Positions 7,977 to 30,216 of a stretch of DNA of 46,492 nt are shown here, one piece after another. Numbering within the stretch: the stretch's first letter is position 1; each line of letters begins with the position of its first letter. A program made the translations under genes and the position numbers. The stretch is from assembly GCA_029550925.1 (NCBI GenBank), contig JAKPGL010000187.1, forward strand, positions 1 to 46,492. The letters are read 5' to 3'. This DNA is from Planctomycetota bacterium. GTDB taxonomy: Bacteria; Planctomycetota; Planctomycetia; Pirellulales; Thermoguttaceae. The notes beneath the pieces are model-generated. The model saw nothing but the letters and a program-made list of their open reading frames with translations, was not told the origin of the DNA and ran no database searches.

Positions 7977-8813
7977 TTACTCCTTTTCGGGAGTTGCTTC
8001 CTTGGCGAGTTTTTTGTTGGAGGATTTTTTGGGCACGGGTTTTTCCGGCTTTTCTTCCGAAGCAGGTTCTTCGGGTTTTTCTGTGGTCTTTTTCTCGATT
8101 TTCTTTTTAGGTCGGCCGCTTTCCGGGGCGCTCAAAGGAGTGGTCAGCTCGACTTCGATCTCTTGGGCCTCGCCCATTCCTTCTCGATAGGCGCCGCCTT
8201 TCACCACAATGCGATCCCCCGCACGCACATAGATCAGGGCCGACAAGTCCACTTTGATTTCCGCGCCCTCTTCCACCTCGAAGAACACGGTCCCGTGAGG
8301 CGTAGTTACGGAGTATTGTCCGTCTTTGACGCTCATAATAGGGCCGATCACGTGGTAGGTGGTTGGGCCGGCGGGTTCCTTCGTTTTCTTTTTACTCGCG
8401 GGATGTCCGGGCTGTCCCGGTTGTTCGGAGATCAGCCCTGTGCCGCCTTCCGGGAATAAACCAGGCAATTTCTGGGGGGAAAGATTACAAATCGCCAATT
8501 TGGCCACTTTCGAGGTGGCATGTCCTTTTTGGTCCACCGTGGCGGTAAACTCCACAACCACTCTCGGTTGCAGGAAACTTTTGTCCGCACTTCCTTTGAC
8601 GTGGATTTTCGTCTGTGGAGAGATACGAAACAGCCAACCTTGCCCTGTCAGAGTCTTCAATTGAACCATCCCGGGACCAATCGCCGCTATGGTCCCCTCC
8701 TGGTCCACTTGTTGGAGCACCTTCGGTTGGGCGCCAAAGAGTTTCCCTCCTACTAGCAGGGAAACTCCCAGCAGACACCCGAATCCCGCCGCCAGGATTT
8801 TCTTCGTGTTCAT
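7977..8813 (-). CDS. Secreted hypothetical protein with a charged Lys/Glu/Pro tail
   Basis: This 278-residue protein has no recognised family. A signal peptide is clear (basic MNTKKI, hydrophobic LAAGFGCLLGVSLLVGG, then a likely cleavage near LFGA-QP), so it should be exported. Two similar beta-rich modules follow. Residues about 38-112 contain IGPGMVQLKTLTGQGWLFRI, and about 150-225 contain IGPIMSVKDGQYSVTTPHGT. In each, a short segment about a property 'at a given setting' resembles OB-like or DUF5666-like repeats, but this is only an impression. The last 50 residues are low complexity (PKKKIEKKT, PEEPASEEKPEKP). The protein is alone between convergent panD and the minus-strand two-component pair. 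Confidence 0.75.
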   Translation of the reverse strand: MNTKKILAAGFGCLLGVSLLVGGKLFGAQPKVLQQVDQEGTIAAIGPGMVQLKTLTGQGWLFRISPQTKIHVKGSADKSFLQPRVVVEFTATVDQKGHATSKVAKLAICNLSPQKLPGLFPEGGTGLISEQPGQPGHPASKKKTKEPAGPTTYHVIGPIMSVKDGQYSVTTPHGTVFFEVEEGAEIKVDLSALIYVRAGDRIVVKGGAYREGMGEAQEIEVELTTPLSAPESGRPKKKIEKKTTEKPEEPASEEKPEKPVPKKSSNKKLAKEATPEKE

Positions 8814-8985
8814 GGTTACACACCTCGTCTATTAAGCCCAAAGCGATTCTCCTAGGCCGCCGCAGCCTGAGGACCCTTCTTTATCCTTCAGCATACTCTC
8901 CCTACCTAGGCCGGGAAAGCCTACCCCTTCGAAATTTTGGAAAATTTAACCGTCTGGCGAGATTTCCCCGGAGTGAAGAAACTGC

Positions 8986-9181
8986 GAAACATTTTAGCCG
9001 AATGCAAAGGGGGTTTATTTTAGAGCGAAATTCGCCCCAGATGGCCATTCCCGCGCAAGCTCTCAATCCAGGCTTCTATGAGGCGGCTACGTTGTTATTC
9101 CTCCCAAGTAGAGGCTACAAGAAGCCTAGATGGGGCGCTTGCGCGGCAGTGGCAAAGTACTGCATTCGGCTAAAAGGTTAC
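8986..9181 (-). mobile_element. Miniature inverted-repeat element, long form, copy 1
   Basis: This 196 bp non-coding element has terminal repeats GAAACATTTTAGCCGAATGC and its inverse GCATTCGGCTAAAAGGTTAC. Its inside matches the copies at 20386 and 20914 in reverse orientation (for example TTCCTCCCAAGTAGAGGC, CCTCATAG-type core and TTCCCGCGCAAGC). The flanks GAAACTGC and AAAACTCC agree at six of eight positions, which fits an old, decayed target duplication. It lies in the gap 8814-9267, downstream of the response regulator gene and upstream of the secreted protein. Apart from it, this gap shows nothing recognisable. Confidence 0.85.
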
Positions 9182-9267
9182 CAAAACTCCAGTTTCAACC
9201 TGGATACTTGCTTTCACGGGGATGAGAATAAGAAGGCCGATCCACTCGGCGGAAGTGTTACAAGGCT

Positions 9268-10734
9268 CTAAGCGCTTTTTTCCAACTCGGCCGTTTGATT
9301 GAGTTTATTATAGAGAGTTTTCAGGCTGATGCCGAGTTCTTCGGCCGCTTTGGCCTTATTGCCGCCGTGGCGTTGGAGGGCCTCGGCAATGGCCTGCATC
9401 TCGATCTCTCGGAGAGTTCGGCCTGATTGGGTTGTCGGGACGGAAGAAGACGCGGTTTTTGCAAGGTGGGTTTCTAAAGGAATGCGTAACGAATCTGTTT
9501 CTGAGCTGCGGAAAGGGGCCGGCAGACGGCGTTTGGGTTCCTGGCCGACGCCCAGTTGAGGCGGCAGGTCTTCGGCCCGAATGGGCAACCCCTGGCCCAG
9601 GATCAGCGCCCGTTCCAGGACGTTGGCCAGTTCCCGGACATTGCCCGGCCAAGAGTGCCGTTGGAGCCGATCCAGGGCCTCCGGCGTCAGCAATTCCGCA
9701 CCCTCCGGCGTTTGAGGTCGAAACCGGCGGATCAAATGGGCCGCCAGAGCCGGGATGTCTTCGATCCGCTCCCGCAGCGGCGGCGCATAGATTTCTACCG
9801 TATTGATCCGAAACAGAAGGTCTTCTCGAAATTCTCCCTGTTGGACCATCTGTTCCAAGTTCCGATGGGTGGCGCAAACCACCCGCACATCGCACCGAAA
9901 GGCCGTATTTTCACCCACCCGGCGAATTTCCCCGCTTTCCAAGAATCGCAATAGTTTCGCCTGCACCGGTTTGGGCAATTCACCGATTTCGTCCAGAAAT
10001 AGGGTGCCGCCGCCGGCCGATTCAAAAAGTCCTTTGCGGGCCCGATCCGCTCCGGTAAATGCTCCCTTACAATGACCGAACAGCTCACTTTCGATCAGGT
10101 GTTCCGGCAGCGCCCCGCAATTGACCGCCACAAAAGGCTTATCCGCCCGTAGGCTTTGGTCGTGCAGCGCCCGAGCCACCAGTTCTTTGCCTGTGCCGGT
10201 CTCGCCGCGCACCAGCACGGTGGAATCGGTCGGGGCCGCCTTGGCGATCAGCTCCCGAACCGCCGCCATGGCGGGAGAATCGCCGATCAATTCCGATTTG
10301 CCTTCCAGCCGCTCCAATCGGGACTCCAGGGCGCGGAGTTTCAGGTTCATGGCGCGTTTGGCCGCCACCCGGGCCAGCACCGCCCGCAATTCGACCCATT
10401 TGCACGGCTTGGTCAGATAATCGAGCGTCCCGTGCCGAAGGGCAGCCACCGCCGTGGCCAACGAGGATTTGCCGGTCAGGATGACCGCCTCCGTATCCGG
10501 ACAAATCTCCTTGGCGCGGGCGATGACCGTAATGCCGTCGGCCCCGGGCATATCCAGATCGACCAGCAGACAATCGTAAGTATCCCGCTCCAAGGCGGCC
10601 AGGGCGCTAGAGCCGTCCGGGCAAACCGTTACCTCATGCCCCAATCGCGGCAACTCGATCCGCATCAACTCCTGGAGCGATTTTTCATCGTCGGCGAAGA
10701 GGATTTTCAGTTTTTCATGCGGCTTGGCGTCGAT
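9268..10734 (-). CDS. NtrC-family response regulator (receiver, AAA+, Fis HTH) with a non-canonical start
   Basis: This is a sigma-54 activator controlled by the kinase encoded upstream. The visible protein has the phospho-acceptor Asp in CLLVDLDMP, the AAA+ domain with [14 protein letters not shown] and LFLDEIGE, and a C-terminal Fis helix-turn-helix ([15 protein letters not shown]). The first ATG/GTG/TTG start is TTG at 10668, but that would remove the beta1 strand and the Asp pair. In-frame sequence upstream reads [15 protein letters not shown], exactly the missing piece. The frame is closed by TAG ten codons further up, and no ATG, GTG or TTG occurs between. An ATC at 10732-10734 has AAAGGAG seven bases before it and is my chosen start (488 residues); CTG at 10708-10710 is the alternative. 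The gene overlaps the kinase gene by 20 bp. Confidence 0.9.
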
Positions 10735-12328: not shown

Positions 12329-12633
12329 AGTTCCGCTCCTTCGAATGCCGTTCCAGGGAAAAACCGAAAAATTCCAGGGCCGCCTGACGCCTGGTTTCCT
12401 GTAAAACTGAAAAAAAGAGGCGTGCTTTTCGGTCAATCCAAGCCGAAAATGAGGGTGCAAGTGTAACAACACCCTTGGGAAAAGAGCAAGATTCTTTTTT
12501 AATACCCCTCTTAAGATGGGGTCGAAACCACACCTTCTTTCGCCTATCCAACCCCTCTGAACCAAAGCATTCGGATAGGCAAACGGAGCCCCCCTATGAG
12601 GTGAAATCACCTCCCTCCTCGGAAAGATTTTAT

Positions 12634-12818
12634 GTAATTATTCAGCCGATGCAGAAGTGCCGGGATTTTCTCGGCAAAAATCCATTCCCGCGAAAGCTCT
12701 CAATCCAGGGTCCTATGAGGAGGTTACGTTGTTATTCCTCCCAAGTAGCGGCTGCAAGAAGCCTAGATGGGGTGCTTGCGCGGCAGTGACAAGGTACTGC
12801 ATTCGGCTAAAATGTTAC
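12634..12818 (-). mobile_element. Miniature inverted-repeat element, long form, copy 2 (most decayed)
   Basis: The 185 bp copy has an intact right end, GCATTCGGCTAAAATGTTAC, and a degenerate left end, GTAATTATTCAGCCGATGCA. The inside (TTCCCGCGAAAGCTCTCAAT, TTCCTCCCAAGTAGCGGC, CCTAGATGGGGTGCTTGCG) matches copy 1 in the same orientation. The flanks GATTTTAT and ATTTTTAT share six of eight bases. It lies upstream of the histidine kinase gene in a long intergenic region. The remaining sequence 12329-12633 shows no gene. Confidence 0.82.
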
Positions 12819-13193
12819 AATTTTTATCTAATAAATAGTAACCCGAGGCCCATAGAGGAAATAAAAGGAGTTTTACCTTCCTCCTTTCCTGGGAGGTATT
12901 GGCACCATCTTTTCCAGTGGAGATTTTTGAGGTTTCTCAAGGAATTCTAGTGAACTATTTTGTTAATTTAGTTAAAATAGGTAATATAGAGAACGCTTTC
13001 TCCTCTTCATTATTTTCCACCTCCCAATGGAAAGGCCGATATAATTTAATTTTCGCTTATCGGCTTTGTGGGAAGATTTTCACGGATTCGGAGCAAGTCG
13101 GGATCGCAAAACTTTTAAATACCGGGTAGTTATTGTTTTTCACCCGATCGATTGCCCACCGATGATTCTGTTTTTGGATAAAAGGTTTGTGTG
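12819..13193. other. AT-rich gap without a gene
   Basis: These 375 bases are clearly richer in A and T than the surrounding genes (for example 12950-13050). No open frame with a ribosome site, tRNA or terminator was recognised. The last 15 bases before the start at 13194 contain AAAAGG, a modest ribosome site for the next gene. The promoter of that gene probably lies here but could not be placed. Confidence 0.5.
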
Positions 13194-19525: not shown

Positions 19526-19620
19526 ACCCCGTAACCCTTGGAGAAGACAAAATAAAAGCGGCATACCGCCGCTCTAAAGAATCGGGAACTTTTACGCCAA
19601 AAATGCCTTCTTTGTGGAGT

Positions 19621-19902
19621 TTATTCACCCACAAACGGCAATAAAGCCATGATGCGGGCCCTTTTGATGGCCCGGCTAATGGCGTGCTGACTGGCTGCCG
19701 AACAACCGGTCTTCCGTCGGCTAATGATCTTGCCCTGCCGGTTGATAAACTTCTTGAGCAAATCCACGTCTTTGTAATCGACAAAGAGCGGCCGCGGTCG
19801 AACACCATCGACAAACAACGGATCCCGCTTTTTGGCCCGTGCCCTTGCCCGAGCCCGTTTCCTCGCCGTCTTACTCAATCTGGGGGTTGTGGGTTTCGCC
19901 AT
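19621..19902 (-). CDS. rpsR: 30S ribosomal protein S18
   Basis: This 93-residue ribosomal protein of the small-subunit platform contains the family core [40 protein letters not shown] and [10 protein letters not shown]. The first 33 residues are a strongly basic extension ([17 protein letters not shown]) beyond the 75-residue E. coli form. In many bacteria rpsR lies with rpsF and rplI; here it is alone. AGGAG lies 12 bases before the ATG. The C-terminal VGE is normal. The upstream gap leads into the repeat-rich region. Confidence 0.97.
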
Positions 19903-20251
19903 AGAAAATAATTTCTCCTGTTAGGGTGAGAAACAACCACCTTTTATTCTCGAAAAGTTCCATTATAGAGAAAAAATCCCCTCTCGCCAAGGGCCGCTTG
20001 GAGGACAAGTCCCCTATTCTCCCAAGAAACCCTCCAATACCCCTCTTTGGAGCGGATTCAATTCCCCTTTTTGTGGATCTGTGGCGTCATTTGTCCGAAT
20101 GCTCTGGCTCTTGCCTCTTCTCCACATAGCGAACATGGGTAGAAACCACCTTTGGCACCACCCTAATAAATTTCGATGGCTAAGAGCCTCTGACAAGATC
20201 AAGCCCCAAAAAACCTGACGGGCGTACCACCCACCGTAAGTTGCGAAAAAG
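19903..20251. other. Gene-poor gap upstream of rpsR with a partial repeat
   Basis: No gene was recognised. The segment at 20181-20200, TAAGAGCCTCTGACAAGATC, matches the sequence at 444-463 that carries the left arm of the inverted repeat there in 17 of 20 positions; no matching right arm was found here. The rpsR promoter should lie in this region but could not be placed with confidence. Confidence 0.45.
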
Positions 20252-20340
20252 GCAACATTTTAGCCGAATGAAGAAACCCGCCTCTTTCCCTGTGGGAGAG
20301 GAATAAGGATAGGCCTACTGCATTGGGCTAAAATGTTACC
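20252..20340. mobile_element. Miniature inverted-repeat element, short form, with target duplication
   Basis: The 89 bp element begins GCAACATTTTAGCCGAATG and ends CATTGGGCTAAAATGTTACC. It is flanked by CGAAAAAG on both sides (20244-20251 and 20341-20348); at least seven of these eight bases must be duplicated, depending on where the ends are drawn. It shares only its ends with the long form. Its inside (GAAGAAACCCGCC) resembles the short copy at 30126-30216. It lies 45 bp from a long copy. Confidence 0.85.
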
Positions 20341-20385
20341 CGAAAAAGGTCTTTTTGCTAGAGACTCTCAAGGTTATCGAAAAAC

Positions 20386-20579
20386 GTAACATTTTAGCCA
20401 AATGCAGTACTTTGTCATTCCCGCGCAAGCGGAAATCTAGGCTTCTTGCGGCCTCTACTTGGGAGAAATAACAACGTAGCCGCCTCATAGGCCCTGGATT
20501 GAGAGCTTGCGCGGGAATGACAATCCCGGGCAAGTTTCGCCCTAAAATAAGCCTTCTTTGCATTCGGGTAAAATGTTAC
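20386..20579 (+). mobile_element. Miniature inverted-repeat element, long form, copy 3, with 8 bp target duplication
   Basis: The 194 bp element has ends GTAACATTTTAGCCAAATGC and GCATTCGGGTAAAATGTTAC. It is flanked by an exact 8 bp repeat, CGAAAAAC (20378-20385 and 20580-20587). Inside the ends lie TGTCATTCCCGCGCAAGCGG and its partial inverse, and a core with TCTACTTGGGAGAAATAACA shared by all long copies. It contains no gene; the short frames through it are accidental. Confidence 0.92.
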
Positions 20580-20688
20580 CGAAAAACTTCTTTTCTGAGG
20601 GATTGCCACCTCGTCTATTTTCCCAGAATTTTTCCTTCAGGGAACCGGTTTACCTAGTGTGGGATGATCGCTACATAGCGAATAGAAG

Positions 20689-20826
20689 CTAAGATTCGCT
20701 CGTCTTTCGAGTTACCGCCGGGATGTCGTCCGCGATAGCACTCGACCGGATGGGTACGATCCGAGTCGGGCGGTACAAGGCTGCCAAACCTGGTCCGTCG
20801 CCGTAAGCTCCTGCCAATTCGCACAT
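20689..20826 (-). other. Possible structured RNA or 45-codon frame in the repeat region
   Basis: A closing stem TACCGCC (20713-20719) with GGCGGTA (20769-20775) encloses a hairpin CGACCGGAT (20743-20751) with ATCCG-A-GTCG (20759-20768). Also, GGGATG near 20720 could pair with CATCCC near 20824. On the minus strand the same stretch is an open frame of 45 codons (MCELAGAYGDGP...), 20826 to the stop at 20689-20691, without a ribosome site. The structure argues for an RNA or another repeat, the frame for a small gene; I cannot decide between them. Confidence 0.3.
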
Positions 20827-20913
20827 CCCGACGAAATCAACACTGGGTAAACTTCAGTTTTGGTGGGCTTGTGTCTCTAGGCTGAAAGGACTATCATGGC
20901 TTCCGGAAAAGGG

Positions 20914-21107
20914 GGAACATTTTAGCCGAATGCAGTACTTTGTCATTCCCGCGGAAGCGGGAATCTAGGCTTCTTGCGGCCTCTACTTGGGAGAAATAAC
21001 AACGTAGCCGCCTCATAGGACCCTGGATTCCCGCTTCCGCGGGAATGACAATCCTTAACAAATTTCGTCCTAAAATAAGCCGCATTTGCATTCGGCTGAA
21101 ATGTTAC
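20914..21107 (+). mobile_element. Miniature inverted-repeat element, long form, copy 4, with 8 bp target duplication
   Basis: This 194 bp element is the best preserved copy. Its ends are GGAACATTTTAGCCGAATGC and GCATTCGGCTGAAATGTTAC. It is flanked by an exact 8 bp repeat, GAAAAGGG (20906-20913 and 21108-21115). Inside the ends is a second, perfect inverted repeat of about 25 bp that starts TGTCATTCCCGCGGAAGCGG. Each arm of it is itself a palindrome (ATTCCCGC...GCGGGAAT), so the element can fold extensively. It lies 177 bp upstream of the gene at 21285. Confidence 0.93.
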
Positions 21108-21284
21108 GAAAAGGGAATATGGGGCGTTTCTCAAGGGCGGCAGAAAGGCACGTGGATTTACGGCTGGCGGTAAAAGCCTGGTTGTAAAAAACTACGACGC
21201 TCGGCGGAATGACGGAATGCCTAGAAAGTTTCTAGTGGAAAGGCACTGCTTCTATTTTACACCTTATTGAAGGAGACTCTTTCT

Positions 21285-22430
21285 ATGGCTTTGGAGTTGC
21301 CTTGTCCTGGGTGTGGGCGGCTTTTACGAGTGCCGGATGAAGCCGCTGGCAGACAAGTAAAATGCCCTAAATGTGAAACTGTATTCACTGTTCCGAGCGT
21401 CGGCCCGTTGCCTCCATCAGGCCAGCCAGGTTCCAGTGGGTTCTCTGCTCCTGGTAGTCCGGCCGTTCCTTCTGGTCCGCCGCCAGGGGCGTCGTCTGGC
21501 ATAGAGGGCTATCCACCTTATGGTTTTGCCCCCAGTGGAGCTCCTGCCGGAACCGTTCCCTCGGCTGTCTCTGGTCCGGCAGGAGAGATTCGGCCAAGCC
21601 CCCTTGATCTGGGCGATGTCTTTAACCGCACTTGGAAAATCTTCCAATCTCAGTGGGGCATCTGTGTCGGAGTAGCAGTAATCTTCTGGTTATTGTCTCT
21701 TGCCGTGGGGTTCATCTGTGGGTTTATACCCATTTTGGGGCGACTGCTTGCTTGGGCGTTCGGTATATGGTTGGGCTGTGGTCAGGGGCTGTTTTTCTTA
21801 AAGATAGCTCGGGGCCAACGTGGGGAACTGGGCGATATTTTTACCGGCGCCCCCTACTTCCTTTCCATGCTGGCAGCCAACCTGCTATTGGGACTGATGG
21901 TGTGTGGGATCATTCTTGTTGGCATCAGTCTGCCGGTAGTAATATGGATGGCCATCGGTAGAACGGAGGCGTTGGTCTTGGGCTTCTTGGGCAGCATCCC
22001 TACGGTGATCGTTCTGGTGGTTCTGGGGGTGATCTTTTCCCAGTTTTTCTTTTTGATCCTGGATAGGAATGTGGGGCCGATCGAAGCCCTACGCCTTTCG
22101 GCCCAGATTACCCAAGGCAACCGACTCACCCTATTTCTCCTCTACCTTCTGAGTTCTGGGATTCAACTGCTAGGCGTTTTAGCCTGTTGTATTGGGGTTT
22201 TTGTAACCACCCCCTTTATCATTCTTTTAAGCGCGGTTGCCTATCTGAGGATGACGGGGCAACCAACGGCTGGAATGGAGGTTACCCCCGGCTATCCGGC
22301 GCCGCCCCCTGGTGGTTCCTATCCAGGGTATCCGGGCTATCTGTCTTCTGGTGGTCCGTATCCAGGTTATCCCGCGTTTCCTGGGGGGCCTGGCTTTTCG
22401 GCCCCGCCTTCTTCGCCGGGGCCTCGGTAG
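21285..22430 (+). CDS. Zinc-ribbon protein with a multi-span membrane domain and a Gly/Pro/Tyr tail
   Basis: This 381-residue protein is not assigned to a known function. Residues 1-35 are an MJ0042-like zinc ribbon with CPGC and CPKC. A Pro/Gly/Ser-rich linker runs to about 110. Then a domain starts with PSPLDLGDVFNRTWKIFQSQ and has about six hydrophobic segments (for example GICVGVAVIFWLLSLAVGFI and LGFLGSIPTVIVLVVLGVIF). It resembles the DUF975 or glycerophosphodiesterase-membrane type of domain in layout. The last 50 residues are YPGYP-like repeats. ATG 21285 is preceded by AAGGAG nine bases upstream, better than the TTG at 21267. It lies upstream of argA, but argA has its own promoter. 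Confidence 0.82.
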   Translation: MALELPCPGCGRLLRVPDEAAGRQVKCPKCETVFTVPSVGPLPPSGQPGSSGFSAPGSPAVPSGPPPGASSGIEGYPPYGFAPSGAPAGTVPSAVSGPAGEIRPSPLDLGDVFNRTWKIFQSQWGICVGVAVIFWLLSLAVGFICGFIPILGRLLAWAFGIWLGCGQGLFFLKIARGQRGELGDIFTGAPYFLSMLAANLLLGLMVCGIILVGISLPVVIWMAIGRTEALVLGFLGSIPTVIVLVVLGVIFSQFFFLILDRNVGPIEALRLSAQITQGNRLTLFLLYLLSSGIQLLGVLACCIGVFVTTPFIILLSAVAYLRMTGQPTAGMEVTPGYPAPPPGGSYPGYPGYLSSGGPYPGYPAFPGGPGFSAPPSSPGPR

Positions 22431-22591
22431 CATTCCAGGGGCCCTCGGCGTAGAAAGCAAGCCATTCGCGCGGGAAACAAATCCATCCCTATTGCCAAGC
22501 TGGTTTGCCTTCGGGCACGGCTTCTGATGGAAAAAGCAGAGGGAGTCTCCCCAAGGGGCCCAAGCCCCTGCGATGCACTTGTTATACCCCG

Positions 22592-22619
22592 TTGCAGAGA
22601 GGGCCGAACTGGGTACAAT
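22592..22619 (+). promoter_or_regulatory. argA promoter, apparently giving a leaderless transcript
   Basis: TTGCAG (22592-22597), a 16 bp spacer and TACAAT (22614-22619) form a good housekeeping promoter. Only seven bases separate the -10 from the argA ATG at 22627, so the predicted transcript start is at or next to the A of ATG. No ribosome site precedes the ATG. The sequence is strikingly similar to the promoter at 35259-35286. Confidence 0.65.
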
Positions 22620-22626
22620 CGGCTCT

Positions 22627-23985
22627 ATGAGCGAAGCAAACAGGCCATCCCACTCGGAAGAAGCACCTTTACCTCCGTATTATACGCCGTATTATGCCCA
22701 GTTCCGGGGGCAGACCTTTGTCATTCAGGCCGAGGACCAGGCCGTCGATACGACGCCCAGTATGCGTACGGTCCTGGAGGGTATCCAGGACCTATTGCGG
22801 CATGGGATTCGGGTGGTACTAGTCTTCGGCAAACCGGCCCGATTTTTGGAGGAATTGCAAAGCCAGTACAGCGTACGTCGGCATCCGGAAACCAATCGGC
22901 TGCTGATTCCGGAAAATGCCCTGCCCCGGTTGGCAGAGCAGCGCGGGCGGATTGCCCAGGCGTTGGCCAGCTTGAGCGAGACGATCGGCATGGCGGCTAC
23001 GGTGTTGCCCGTGTCGGTGGTTCGGGCGGAGCGGCGGATCGGCCATCAAAGCACCGGCGTGATTACCGGCCTGGAGCTGGAGGCGATCCGGCAAGTGCTG
23101 GACCGGGGAGAATTGGCCATTTTGGGCTTCGGCGGACAGACGGATCGGGGGGAGTTTTTGCATATCCCGTCGGTGGGTCTGGCGGCGGATTTGGCCGTGG
23201 CGCTGGGGGCGCAAAAATTGCTCCTTTTGGCCCAGACAGATGGCATCTGGATTCCCAGTCGCAAAGGCGGCCAGCAGCAACTCAGCTTTGCCGACCTGGA
23301 GGAACTGCTCTGTCTATTGACCCGGCATCGGCCGGACGGCAGCTCGCTGGTGGCCCCGGAACTGGCGCCGAAGGTTCATGCGGCCATTCGGGCCGTGGCG
23401 GGCGGGGTGCCGCAGGTCCATATCGTCTCCTATAGCCGATTGCTCGAAGAGGTGCTCACCCGCACCGGCGTGGGCACGATGATCGAACGGCTCCAAAGCC
23501 ATCATGTGGAATACGCCCGGCCAGAAGACCTGGACGAAATTCACCGGCTCCATACGGAAGCCCTCCGATACACCACGGCCAGGGGGACTTCGTTTGTCAA
23601 GCCATTGGAGCGGGCGGAATTGGAGCGGCTTTTGCCCTGGACGTTGCTGCTAACGCACCGGGGGGTGCTGATTGGCAAATTGCACGGCCAGGAGGTACTG
23701 GGCGTTCCGGACGCCTTATACATCGGCGGGTTTGTGGTGGGCGAAAACCATCAGGACTCGCAACAGGGGCAATTGCTTCTGTCGGAGGCGTTGGAGCGGT
23801 TTCGGCAGCGGGGGTATCGGCATCTGGCGGCCATTACGGCTTCGCCGCGGGCCAAACGGGCCTTCGAACGGATCGGCGGCCAGACGCCGGAAACACTTTC
23901 CGACTGGCAAGAGCACCTGCTTACCGAAGCCCGAAAGCGGTATCATCCCCAAGAACAGGCCGACGTAGAATTGTTCGTCTTCTGA
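22627..23985 (+). CDS. argA: N-acetylglutamate synthase ArgA (amino-acid kinase fold plus GNAT domain)
   Basis: This 452-residue enzyme transfers acetyl from acetyl-CoA to L-glutamate, the first step of arginine synthesis. Residues about 20-285 form the amino-acid kinase domain (GIRVVLVFGKPARFLEEL, TGVITGLELEAIRQVLDRGE, LGAQKLLLLAQTDGIW), which in this family binds arginine or substrate rather than acting as a kinase. Residues about 300-450 form a GNAT acetyltransferase domain with YIGGFVVGENHQDSQQGQLL as the acetyl-CoA loop region and ASPRAKRAFERIGG near the end. The order matches classical ArgA, not NAGK. ATG 22627 fits the leaderless promoter; an in-frame ATG 18 codons upstream (22573) lies before that promoter and is less likely. 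The neighbours are not arginine genes. Confidence 0.93.
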   Translation: MSEANRPSHSEEAPLPPYYTPYYAQFRGQTFVIQAEDQAVDTTPSMRTVLEGIQDLLRHGIRVVLVFGKPARFLEELQSQYSVRRHPETNRLLIPENALPRLAEQRGRIAQALASLSETIGMAATVLPVSVVRAERRIGHQSTGVITGLELEAIRQVLDRGELAILGFGGQTDRGEFLHIPSVGLAADLAVALGAQKLLLLAQTDGIWIPSRKGGQQQLSFADLEELLCLLTRHRPDGSSLVAPELAPKVHAAIRAVAGGVPQVHIVSYSRLLEEVLTRTGVGTMIERLQSHHVEYARPEDLDEIHRLHTEALRYTTARGTSFVKPLERAELERLLPWTLLLTHRGVLIGKLHGQEVLGVPDALYIGGFVVGENHQDSQQGQLLLSEALERFRQRGYRHLAAITASPRAKRAFERIGGQTPETLSDWQEHLLTEARKRYHPQEQADVELFVF

Positions 23986-30125: not shown

Positions 30126-30216
30126 ATAACATTTCATCCCCCGAAGGAATCCGCCCTTGCTGTGAAAGCGGGGAAAAATGCCTGAGCCTGGTTCCGCCAT
30201 TCGGCTGAAATGTTAC
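30126..30216. mobile_element. Miniature inverted-repeat element, short form, second copy
   Basis: The 91 bp element has an intact right end, CATTCGGCTGAAATGTTAC, and a decayed left end, ATAACATTTCATCC. The inside (GAAGGAATCCGCC) resembles the short copy at 20252 (GAAGAAACCCGCC). No convincing target duplication remains. It ends 31 bp before the start codon of the GT2-TPR gene, so it may influence that gene's promoter or leader. Confidence 0.65.

Follow-up and report, generated by a model that had tools for sequence, protein, structure and literature searches.

Short gene-less elements with IS66-like ends and 8-bp target duplications enclose resident palindrome pairs in a Planctomycetota genome

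The 46,492-nt stretch of DNA analysed here (hereafter the window), contig C113 of the 4.9 Mb, 233-contig assembly G000 of a Thermoguttaceae planctomycete, carries five copies of a small gene-less sequence. This raises the questions of whether these copies are mobile elements, what moves them and where their interior came from. A first-pass annotation had described four long copies of a non-autonomous miniature element with terminal inverted repeats, two of them flanked by exact 8-bp repeats. All four copies are present, and flank comparison bears out both repeats; a fifth, shorter copy and a solitary end had been overlooked. The features are as follows:

8986..9181, minus strand: decayed copy, 196 bp, orientation opposite to the 20386 copy; ends GAAACATTTTAGCCG / ...AAAAGGTTAC
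12634..12818, minus strand: decayed copy, 185 bp; one side with the variant end GTAATTATTCAGCCGATGCAG
20252..20340, plus strand: short copy, 89 bp, with a differing interior; flanked by CGAAAAAG as an exact 8-bp duplication whose boundary is uncertain by 1 bp
20378..20385 (left) and 20580..20587 (right): target duplication CGAAAAAC of the 20386 copy, by flank comparison
20386..20579, plus strand: full copy, 194 bp; ends GTAACATTTTAGCCAAATGCA / TGCATTCGGGTAAAATGTTAC
20906..20913 (left) and 21108..21115 (right): target duplication GAAAAGGG of the 20914 copy, by flank comparison
20914..21107, plus strand: full copy, 194 bp, 87% identical to 20386-20579; left end mutated to GGAACATT
20942..20964, plus strand: left resident palindrome GTCATTCCCGCGGAAGCGGGAAT within the 20914-21107 copy
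21027..21049, minus strand: right resident palindrome of the same copy, inverted, forming a REPIN-like pair with 20942..20964
About 30196..30216, minus strand: solitary end relic GCCATTCGGCTGAAATGTTAC

Three of the five copies thus have exact 8-bp flanking repeats and the two decayed ones do not. With fixed boundaries the flanks of the decayed copies match at 4/8 (8986-9181) and 5/8 (12634-12818) positions; the six of eight reported earlier is reached in both, but only by sliding one boundary by a base, and is therefore a generous reading. The copies hold no recognisable gene, as had been claimed: the three open reading frames of at least 80 aa that overlap two of them (8615-9271, 12475-12789 and 12657-12950) gave no Pfam match. 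The RFRGND frames noted earlier do run through the copies; such peptides are a known artefact of repeats of this kind in annotation. A search of the window against Rfam at gathering thresholds returned no match.

To place these copies in the genome, we scanned it with a 19-mer end motif at up to three mismatches and obtained 181+178 matches (359), against 2+0 for the reversed pattern; at least 20 ends in the genome are solitary. A search with the 194-bp copy gave 40 near-full-length matches, itself included, among the 40 scored of 299 candidates. For statistics on insertion we used 81 elements selected solely on their ends, comprising every adjacent inward pair of ends with up to five mismatches lying 60-420 bp apart at the own-genome loci L001-L060, L128-L167 and L236, which were drawn from the listed matches to the 194-bp copy and to the end motif and do not cover all 359 end matches. 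A separate pairing, which admitted poor second ends only where a duplication of at least 7/8 was present, is biased and did not enter these counts. Mismatched flank pairs served as the control for duplications, as the reversed pattern did for ends and letter shuffles for palindromes.

The 81 elements measure 88-357 bp, and 32 of them are flanked by exact 8-bp repeats, compared with 2/6,480 mismatched flank pairs, which upholds the reading of them as miniature elements that have terminal inverted repeats and duplicate 8 bp of target. A further eight have repeats matching at seven of eight positions (control 28/6,480) and the remaining 41 fall below that; contrary to the possibility, raised at first pass, that further copies would lack target duplications, 40 of the 81 keep seven or eight of the eight bases. 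The duplication is specifically of 8 bp, since exact repeats of 6, 7, 9 and 10 bp were found at 0, 0, 1 and 0 elements. A smaller, earlier set of elements, in which sliding of the boundary was allowed, gave exact duplications at 22/41 (control 8/1,640). The preference for A-rich targets, which had been suggested from three sites, holds as a preference for AT-rich ones: AAAA or TTTT occurs in 16/40 of the duplications (7 or 8 of 8) versus 705/6,932 flanking 8-mers, and AT content falls from 62.5% in the 40 duplications to 51% in the surrounding 50 bp and 46% in the surrounding 300 bp. The copies at L016 (contig C182) and L032 (contig C8) share the duplication TATTTTTC and resemble each other in their flanks; a segmental duplication or strain-mixture redundancy is a possible reason. 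An exact scan of a collection of 84,980 species, from which the own and near genomes may be absent, for the MITE end plus AGTAC returned 0 matches.

The sequence CAAAACTCCAGTTT was considered as a preferred target and dropped, as it turned out to lead to a second element family. Five genomic copies represent this family; they measure 122-126 bp, have CTGGAGTTTTGCAAA ends and are flanked by 6-bp duplications, four of which are exact (ATGTTA, TTATTA, TTAGCA, TAACAT), the one in L153 matching at 5 of 6:

Second-family copies: L033:1521-1645; L139:145-270; L153:811-934; L164:1085-1210; L165:475-596

Three of these (in L033, L153 and L165) are embedded in first-family copies or ends, and in a hybrid at L161:626-821 a second-family end abuts the GTAAC end externally on either side, an exact 6-bp duplication, TTAGAA, lying beyond. 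The right flank CAAAACTCCAG of the window copy 8986-9181 (window 9182-9192) resembles the end of this second family, and the same CAAAACTCCAG is found on one side of an IS66 3' end in contig C232 (L084:215-246).

Nesting and synteny bear on insertion as well. At L054 a copy with the duplication AAATCTTA lies inside the end of another copy, and omitting the inner copy restores an end sequence. In the congener G001, the stretch syntenic to copies 8986-9181 and 12634-12818 (L185) contains no end at up to three mismatches. At a second site, about 290 bp of G001 separate a conserved stretch (window 19597-19971) from the gene at 22573-23985, versus about 2.6 kb in the window, where the interval 19971-22573 holds three copies and one more gene. 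At the level of species, the window copies are thus absent at two syntenic stretches of this one congener. The region of copies 8986-9181 and 12634-12818 in a second congener, G002, contains different elements, or ends, of this type. The intergenic DNA of the sister genomes is too diverged for reliable alignment, and empty sites could not be read there to the exact base. The additional gene in the 19971-22573 block (21267-22430) has a sub-threshold match to DUF975 and was not found in the G001 and G002 stretches compared.

The elements fold strongly, and a conceivable alternative is that they are selected regulatory or terminator hairpins, akin to REP or BIME sequences, spread by conversion rather than by transposition. 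The hairpin of copy 20386-20579 has a minimum free energy of -90.5 kcal/mol (z -9.05 versus shuffles), as this alternative would have it, and the interior palindromes are REP-like and also occur free-standing (see below). Against it, exact 8-bp duplications lie at the outer ends, and the gene arrangement is mixed: among the 43/81 elements that have 700 bp on both sides, rough ORF calls place 7 between convergent, 12 between divergent and 24 between tandem genes, the same calls giving 2,240, 4,016 and 2,979 intergenic bases of these kinds in the window. A fixed relation to genes, such as the terminator role entertained at first pass, is not supported by these counts. Covariation is also slight. 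A similarity filter retained 37 of the 41 elements measuring 190-198 bp, and 34 of these were aligned (L032, L035 and L040 being left out), and the whole-element alignment fold has two-sided changes in just 5/41 pairs and a covariation term of -0.8 kcal/mol; because of this weakness, we do not argue for a selected RNA. Taken with the duplications, these data make hairpins spread by conversion a very improbable account. The 37 copies average 83% pairwise identity and 90% identity to their consensus, which suggests an old spread.

The elements are short and gene-less, with terminal inverted repeats, a duplication of fixed length and ends matching those of an insertion sequence (IS), and their standing as a genuine MITE family is well supported. 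As to what moves them, the first-pass annotation had supposed a transposase encoded elsewhere. We searched with a single transposase family, the profile PF03050 (DDE_Tnp_IS66), and found three places in the own genome. The best, C224:3958-4623, sits behind an exact end at C224:3389, which is of the GTAAC type, agrees with the MITE consensus at all 21 bp and lies just upstream of a tnpC ORF of 396 codons that stays open to the contig end. This ORF scores 91.7 bits against Pfam PF03050 (cut-off 23.1, E=6.8e-26) and 196.3 bits against NCBIfam NF033517 (cut-off 180). The first start codon comes about 90 bp after the end, too close for tnpA or tnpB to fit upstream, and the 3' side is on another contig. 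Contig C232 begins with an IS66 C-terminal stretch and ends in CTGCAAACGGCTAAAATATTAC, its flanks being unmatched, and contig C149 has an IS66 copy with the same end that bears an internal deletion and a stop. The supposition of a transposase elsewhere is thus probably borne out by an IS66 tnpC behind an identical end, with the reservation that the copy is split, its 5' part meeting a contig end and its 3' part lying elsewhere, and no complete copy is assembled. The tnpC on C224 is probably the mobilising partner; its IS would be the one whose ends match those of the MITEs, the split copy may be autonomous, and a complete partner would be bounded by GTAACATTTTAGCC ends.

Relatives of this IS66 element were identified at 81-82% identity in L106/G064 (a Pirellulales MAG), 67% in L107 (a MAG labelled Candidatus Binatia), 60% in L108 (a Planctomycetota MAG) and 59% in Singulisphaera acidiphila. 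L107 is bounded by GTAACACGTTAGCCGTATGCA and GTAACACGTTAGCCATTTGCA, 1,507 bp end to end, which agree with the ends here at 18 and 16 of 21 positions, and it has an exact 8-bp duplication, GGCTTCGC. Related ends without a duplication are present at L108, L095 and L091, and no convincing ends were recognised at 6/10 of the IS66 relative loci tested. In the parts of the literature available to us, an 8-bp repeat is given for ISDge4 of the ISBst12 group of IS66, together with the ends GTGACTACTCAGCA/GTAACTGCTCAGCA (PMC12898284), and IS66 elements with GTAA-type ends are likewise on record (PMC12888890). We accordingly regard the elements as a MITE family whose members an IS66-family transposase very probably moves in trans; the enzyme probably belongs to the ISBst12 (tnpC-only) group. 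Such a transposase would recognise the 20-21 bp ends (GTAACATTTYAGCCGAATGCA) and move the short element, and insertion at AT-rich 8-bp targets would leave the target duplicated.

The distribution of the ends bears on a different possibility, namely that the elements are mobile by the transposase of another IS, unassembled or unsearched, and that the IS66 copies share or have borrowed its ends. The core GTAACATTTYAGCCGA, at up to one mismatch, occurs in 37/147 genomes, with reversed controls reaching at most 3 in one genome. The counts are 172+170 in the own genome, 66+70 and 77+62 in the congeners G001 and G002, 20+22 in G047 (from another family), 8+17 in G034, 9+9 in G101, 8+7 in G033, 6+7 in G079 and up to 7 in others. 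G001, G002 and G047, with 136, 139 and 42 end matches, are draft assemblies among the seven genomes searched for PF03050, and all three lack a match. This could speak for another IS, the more so as the own genome is a draft of 233 contigs and the transposase search covered PF03050 alone. On the other side stand the identical 21-bp end correctly placed just upstream of tnpC, the same end pattern and 8-bp duplication in the relative L107, and the occurrence of such ends and 8-bp repeats in ISBst12-group elements, as given in the portion of PMC12898284 consulted. We hence consider mobilisation by another IS improbable and favour the IS66-family transposase. On that reading the ends appear to outlast the IS66 gene, because G001, G002 and G047 keep them without a PF03050 match. 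The six end pairs examined in G001/G002 complicate this picture, since only one (L227) has an exact duplication, and L170, L171, L230, L172 and L233 match at 3-6 of 8.

What the elements have in common with the IS66 element is confined to their ends, about 22 bp; the interior is something other than IS66 DNA. Its usual content is an inverted pair of the palindrome GTCATTCCCGCGNAAGCGGGAAT, at least one of which is found in 58/81 elements at up to five mismatches and 33/81 at up to two, compared with 0/1,620 letter shuffles at up to five. Counts of the palindrome at up to two mismatches are 182 in G000, 164 in G001, 131 in G002, 2 in G047 and 0 in G034, G064 and G033. It is also a resident outside the elements. 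Among 31 exact palindromes at 29 sampled G000 loci, 20 of which were picked away from known MITE places, loose ends (up to 4 of 16 positions mismatched, within 250 bp) were found on both sides of 8, on one side of 13 and on neither side of 10, and a free-standing pair is seen at L313. At L031 and L048, the starts of contigs C4 and C35, the same sequence runs into a copy at the copy's TTGTCATTCCC palindrome, which suggests that another repeat or IS in that palindrome breaks the assembly there.

In two other genera these ends surround different resident repeats. G034 has two 159-bp MITEs, with the duplications GATTTTTT and GAAATTTT, around a different inverted pair; exact 8-bp duplications are present in 2/3 of the complete elements examined there, the third, L225, being without one. 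The corresponding pattern, CGCCGGGATAAACCCGGCGGCTCGCTGAT, is found 44 times in G034 and 0 times in five other genomes at up to three mismatches, and its 12 loci comprise four free of ends (L288-L291), four enclosed and four cut or half. In G047, eight MITEs of 206-306 bp, five with exact 8-bp duplications, surround repeats of the TTTGTTTCGGATTTCGTGCTTCGGATTT type, which number 58 in that genome and 0 in five others; by the rule used, five of its 12 repeat loci are enclosed, five free and two half. As both patterns were derived from the MITEs of the respective genome, their presence there is by construction, and it is the free copies and the zeros elsewhere that are informative. With a different resident repeat in each of G000, G034 and G047, the same ends therefore enclose, in three genera, the repeat native to each genome.

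These interiors have the form of REPINs, being two inverted short palindromes that form a hairpin and are also found free-standing (G034, G000). How they came to lie within the ends can be read in two ways. Most likely, two IS66 ends came to flank a resident palindrome pair, and the resulting unit then multiplied. Alternatively, and with respect to the interior alone, the pair could be a mobile REPIN, moved by a RAYT-type transposase, which jumped into a pre-existing MITE with IS66 ends. The free units of G034, with sharp boundaries and differing flanks, would fit such a jump, as would the proposal of REP doublets as mobile units in the part of PMC3116915 consulted; against this, an unsystematic look noticed no short duplication at the palindrome boundary within the MITE. 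We take a REPIN jump to be rather unlikely, and it is in any case compatible with IS66-driven spread and does not compete with it. Returning to enclosure of a resident pair by IS66 ends, we advance tentatively, at somewhat under even chances, that Pirellulales IS66-type ends are a general carrier that enclosed and amplified the hosts' own REPIN-like pairs independently in at least three genera, yielding chimeric MITE-REPINs that outlive the IS66 gene. If so, two hairpin-dispersal systems would feed each other, and the MITE interiors would be acquired cargo, not IS remnants.

MITEs are usually regarded as remnants of insertion sequences. In the present family the resemblance to an IS stops at the ends, and what they carry is a repeat of the host; as this cargo differs from genus to genus, the origin of the MITE interiors can be read by comparison. 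The family also ties IS66 to MITEs with 359 end matches in one genome and is a source of RFRGND-type peptides in automatic annotation. Our literature search, which left most subscription journals and ISfinder aside, found no IS66-driven MITE, which does not prove the absence of one; none appears in the parts consulted of PMC3733652, PMC3189936, PMC9769881, PMC12898284, PMC3281130, PMC11578231, PMC12888890 and PMC3116915.

The comparisons that follow draw on partial views of the sources. The ISDge4/ISBst12 group resembles the present system in its IS66-type transposase, ends beginning GTRAC..CAGC and 8-bp direct repeat; ISDge4, however, is an autonomous IS with a 449-aa transposase, whereas the elements here are gene-less and of 88-357 bp, and the portion of the source consulted mentions no MITE linked to ISDge4 or the ISBst12 group (PMC12898284). 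tIS66 (ISPa75) likewise has IS66 ends with cargo unneeded for transposition, but it retains the transposase together with tnpA and tnpB and has a gene as its cargo, in contrast to the ends and palindrome pair found here (PMC12888890). MITEPsy1 and MITEPye1 are similarly short and gene-less, with IS-like terminal inverted repeats and direct repeats, and MITEPye1 is also mostly intergenic with a long stem-loop. MITEPye1, however, is tied to IS1182 at 1-3 per chromosome, compared with 359 occurrences of the motif of the IS66-type ends here; MITEPsy1, which probably derives from ISPsy2, has a repeat of 4 nt, as against an 8-bp repeat and an interior that is usually a resident palindrome pair. REPINs share the inverted doublet of short palindromes, the hairpin and the many copies (Bertels and Rainey, PMC3116915); the likeness is one of form, as the doublet here often lies inside IS66-like ends with 8-bp duplications. 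The family is thus an ordinary one in kind as MITEs go, and what is unusual about it is its IS66 partner, its scale and the use of host repeats as its body.
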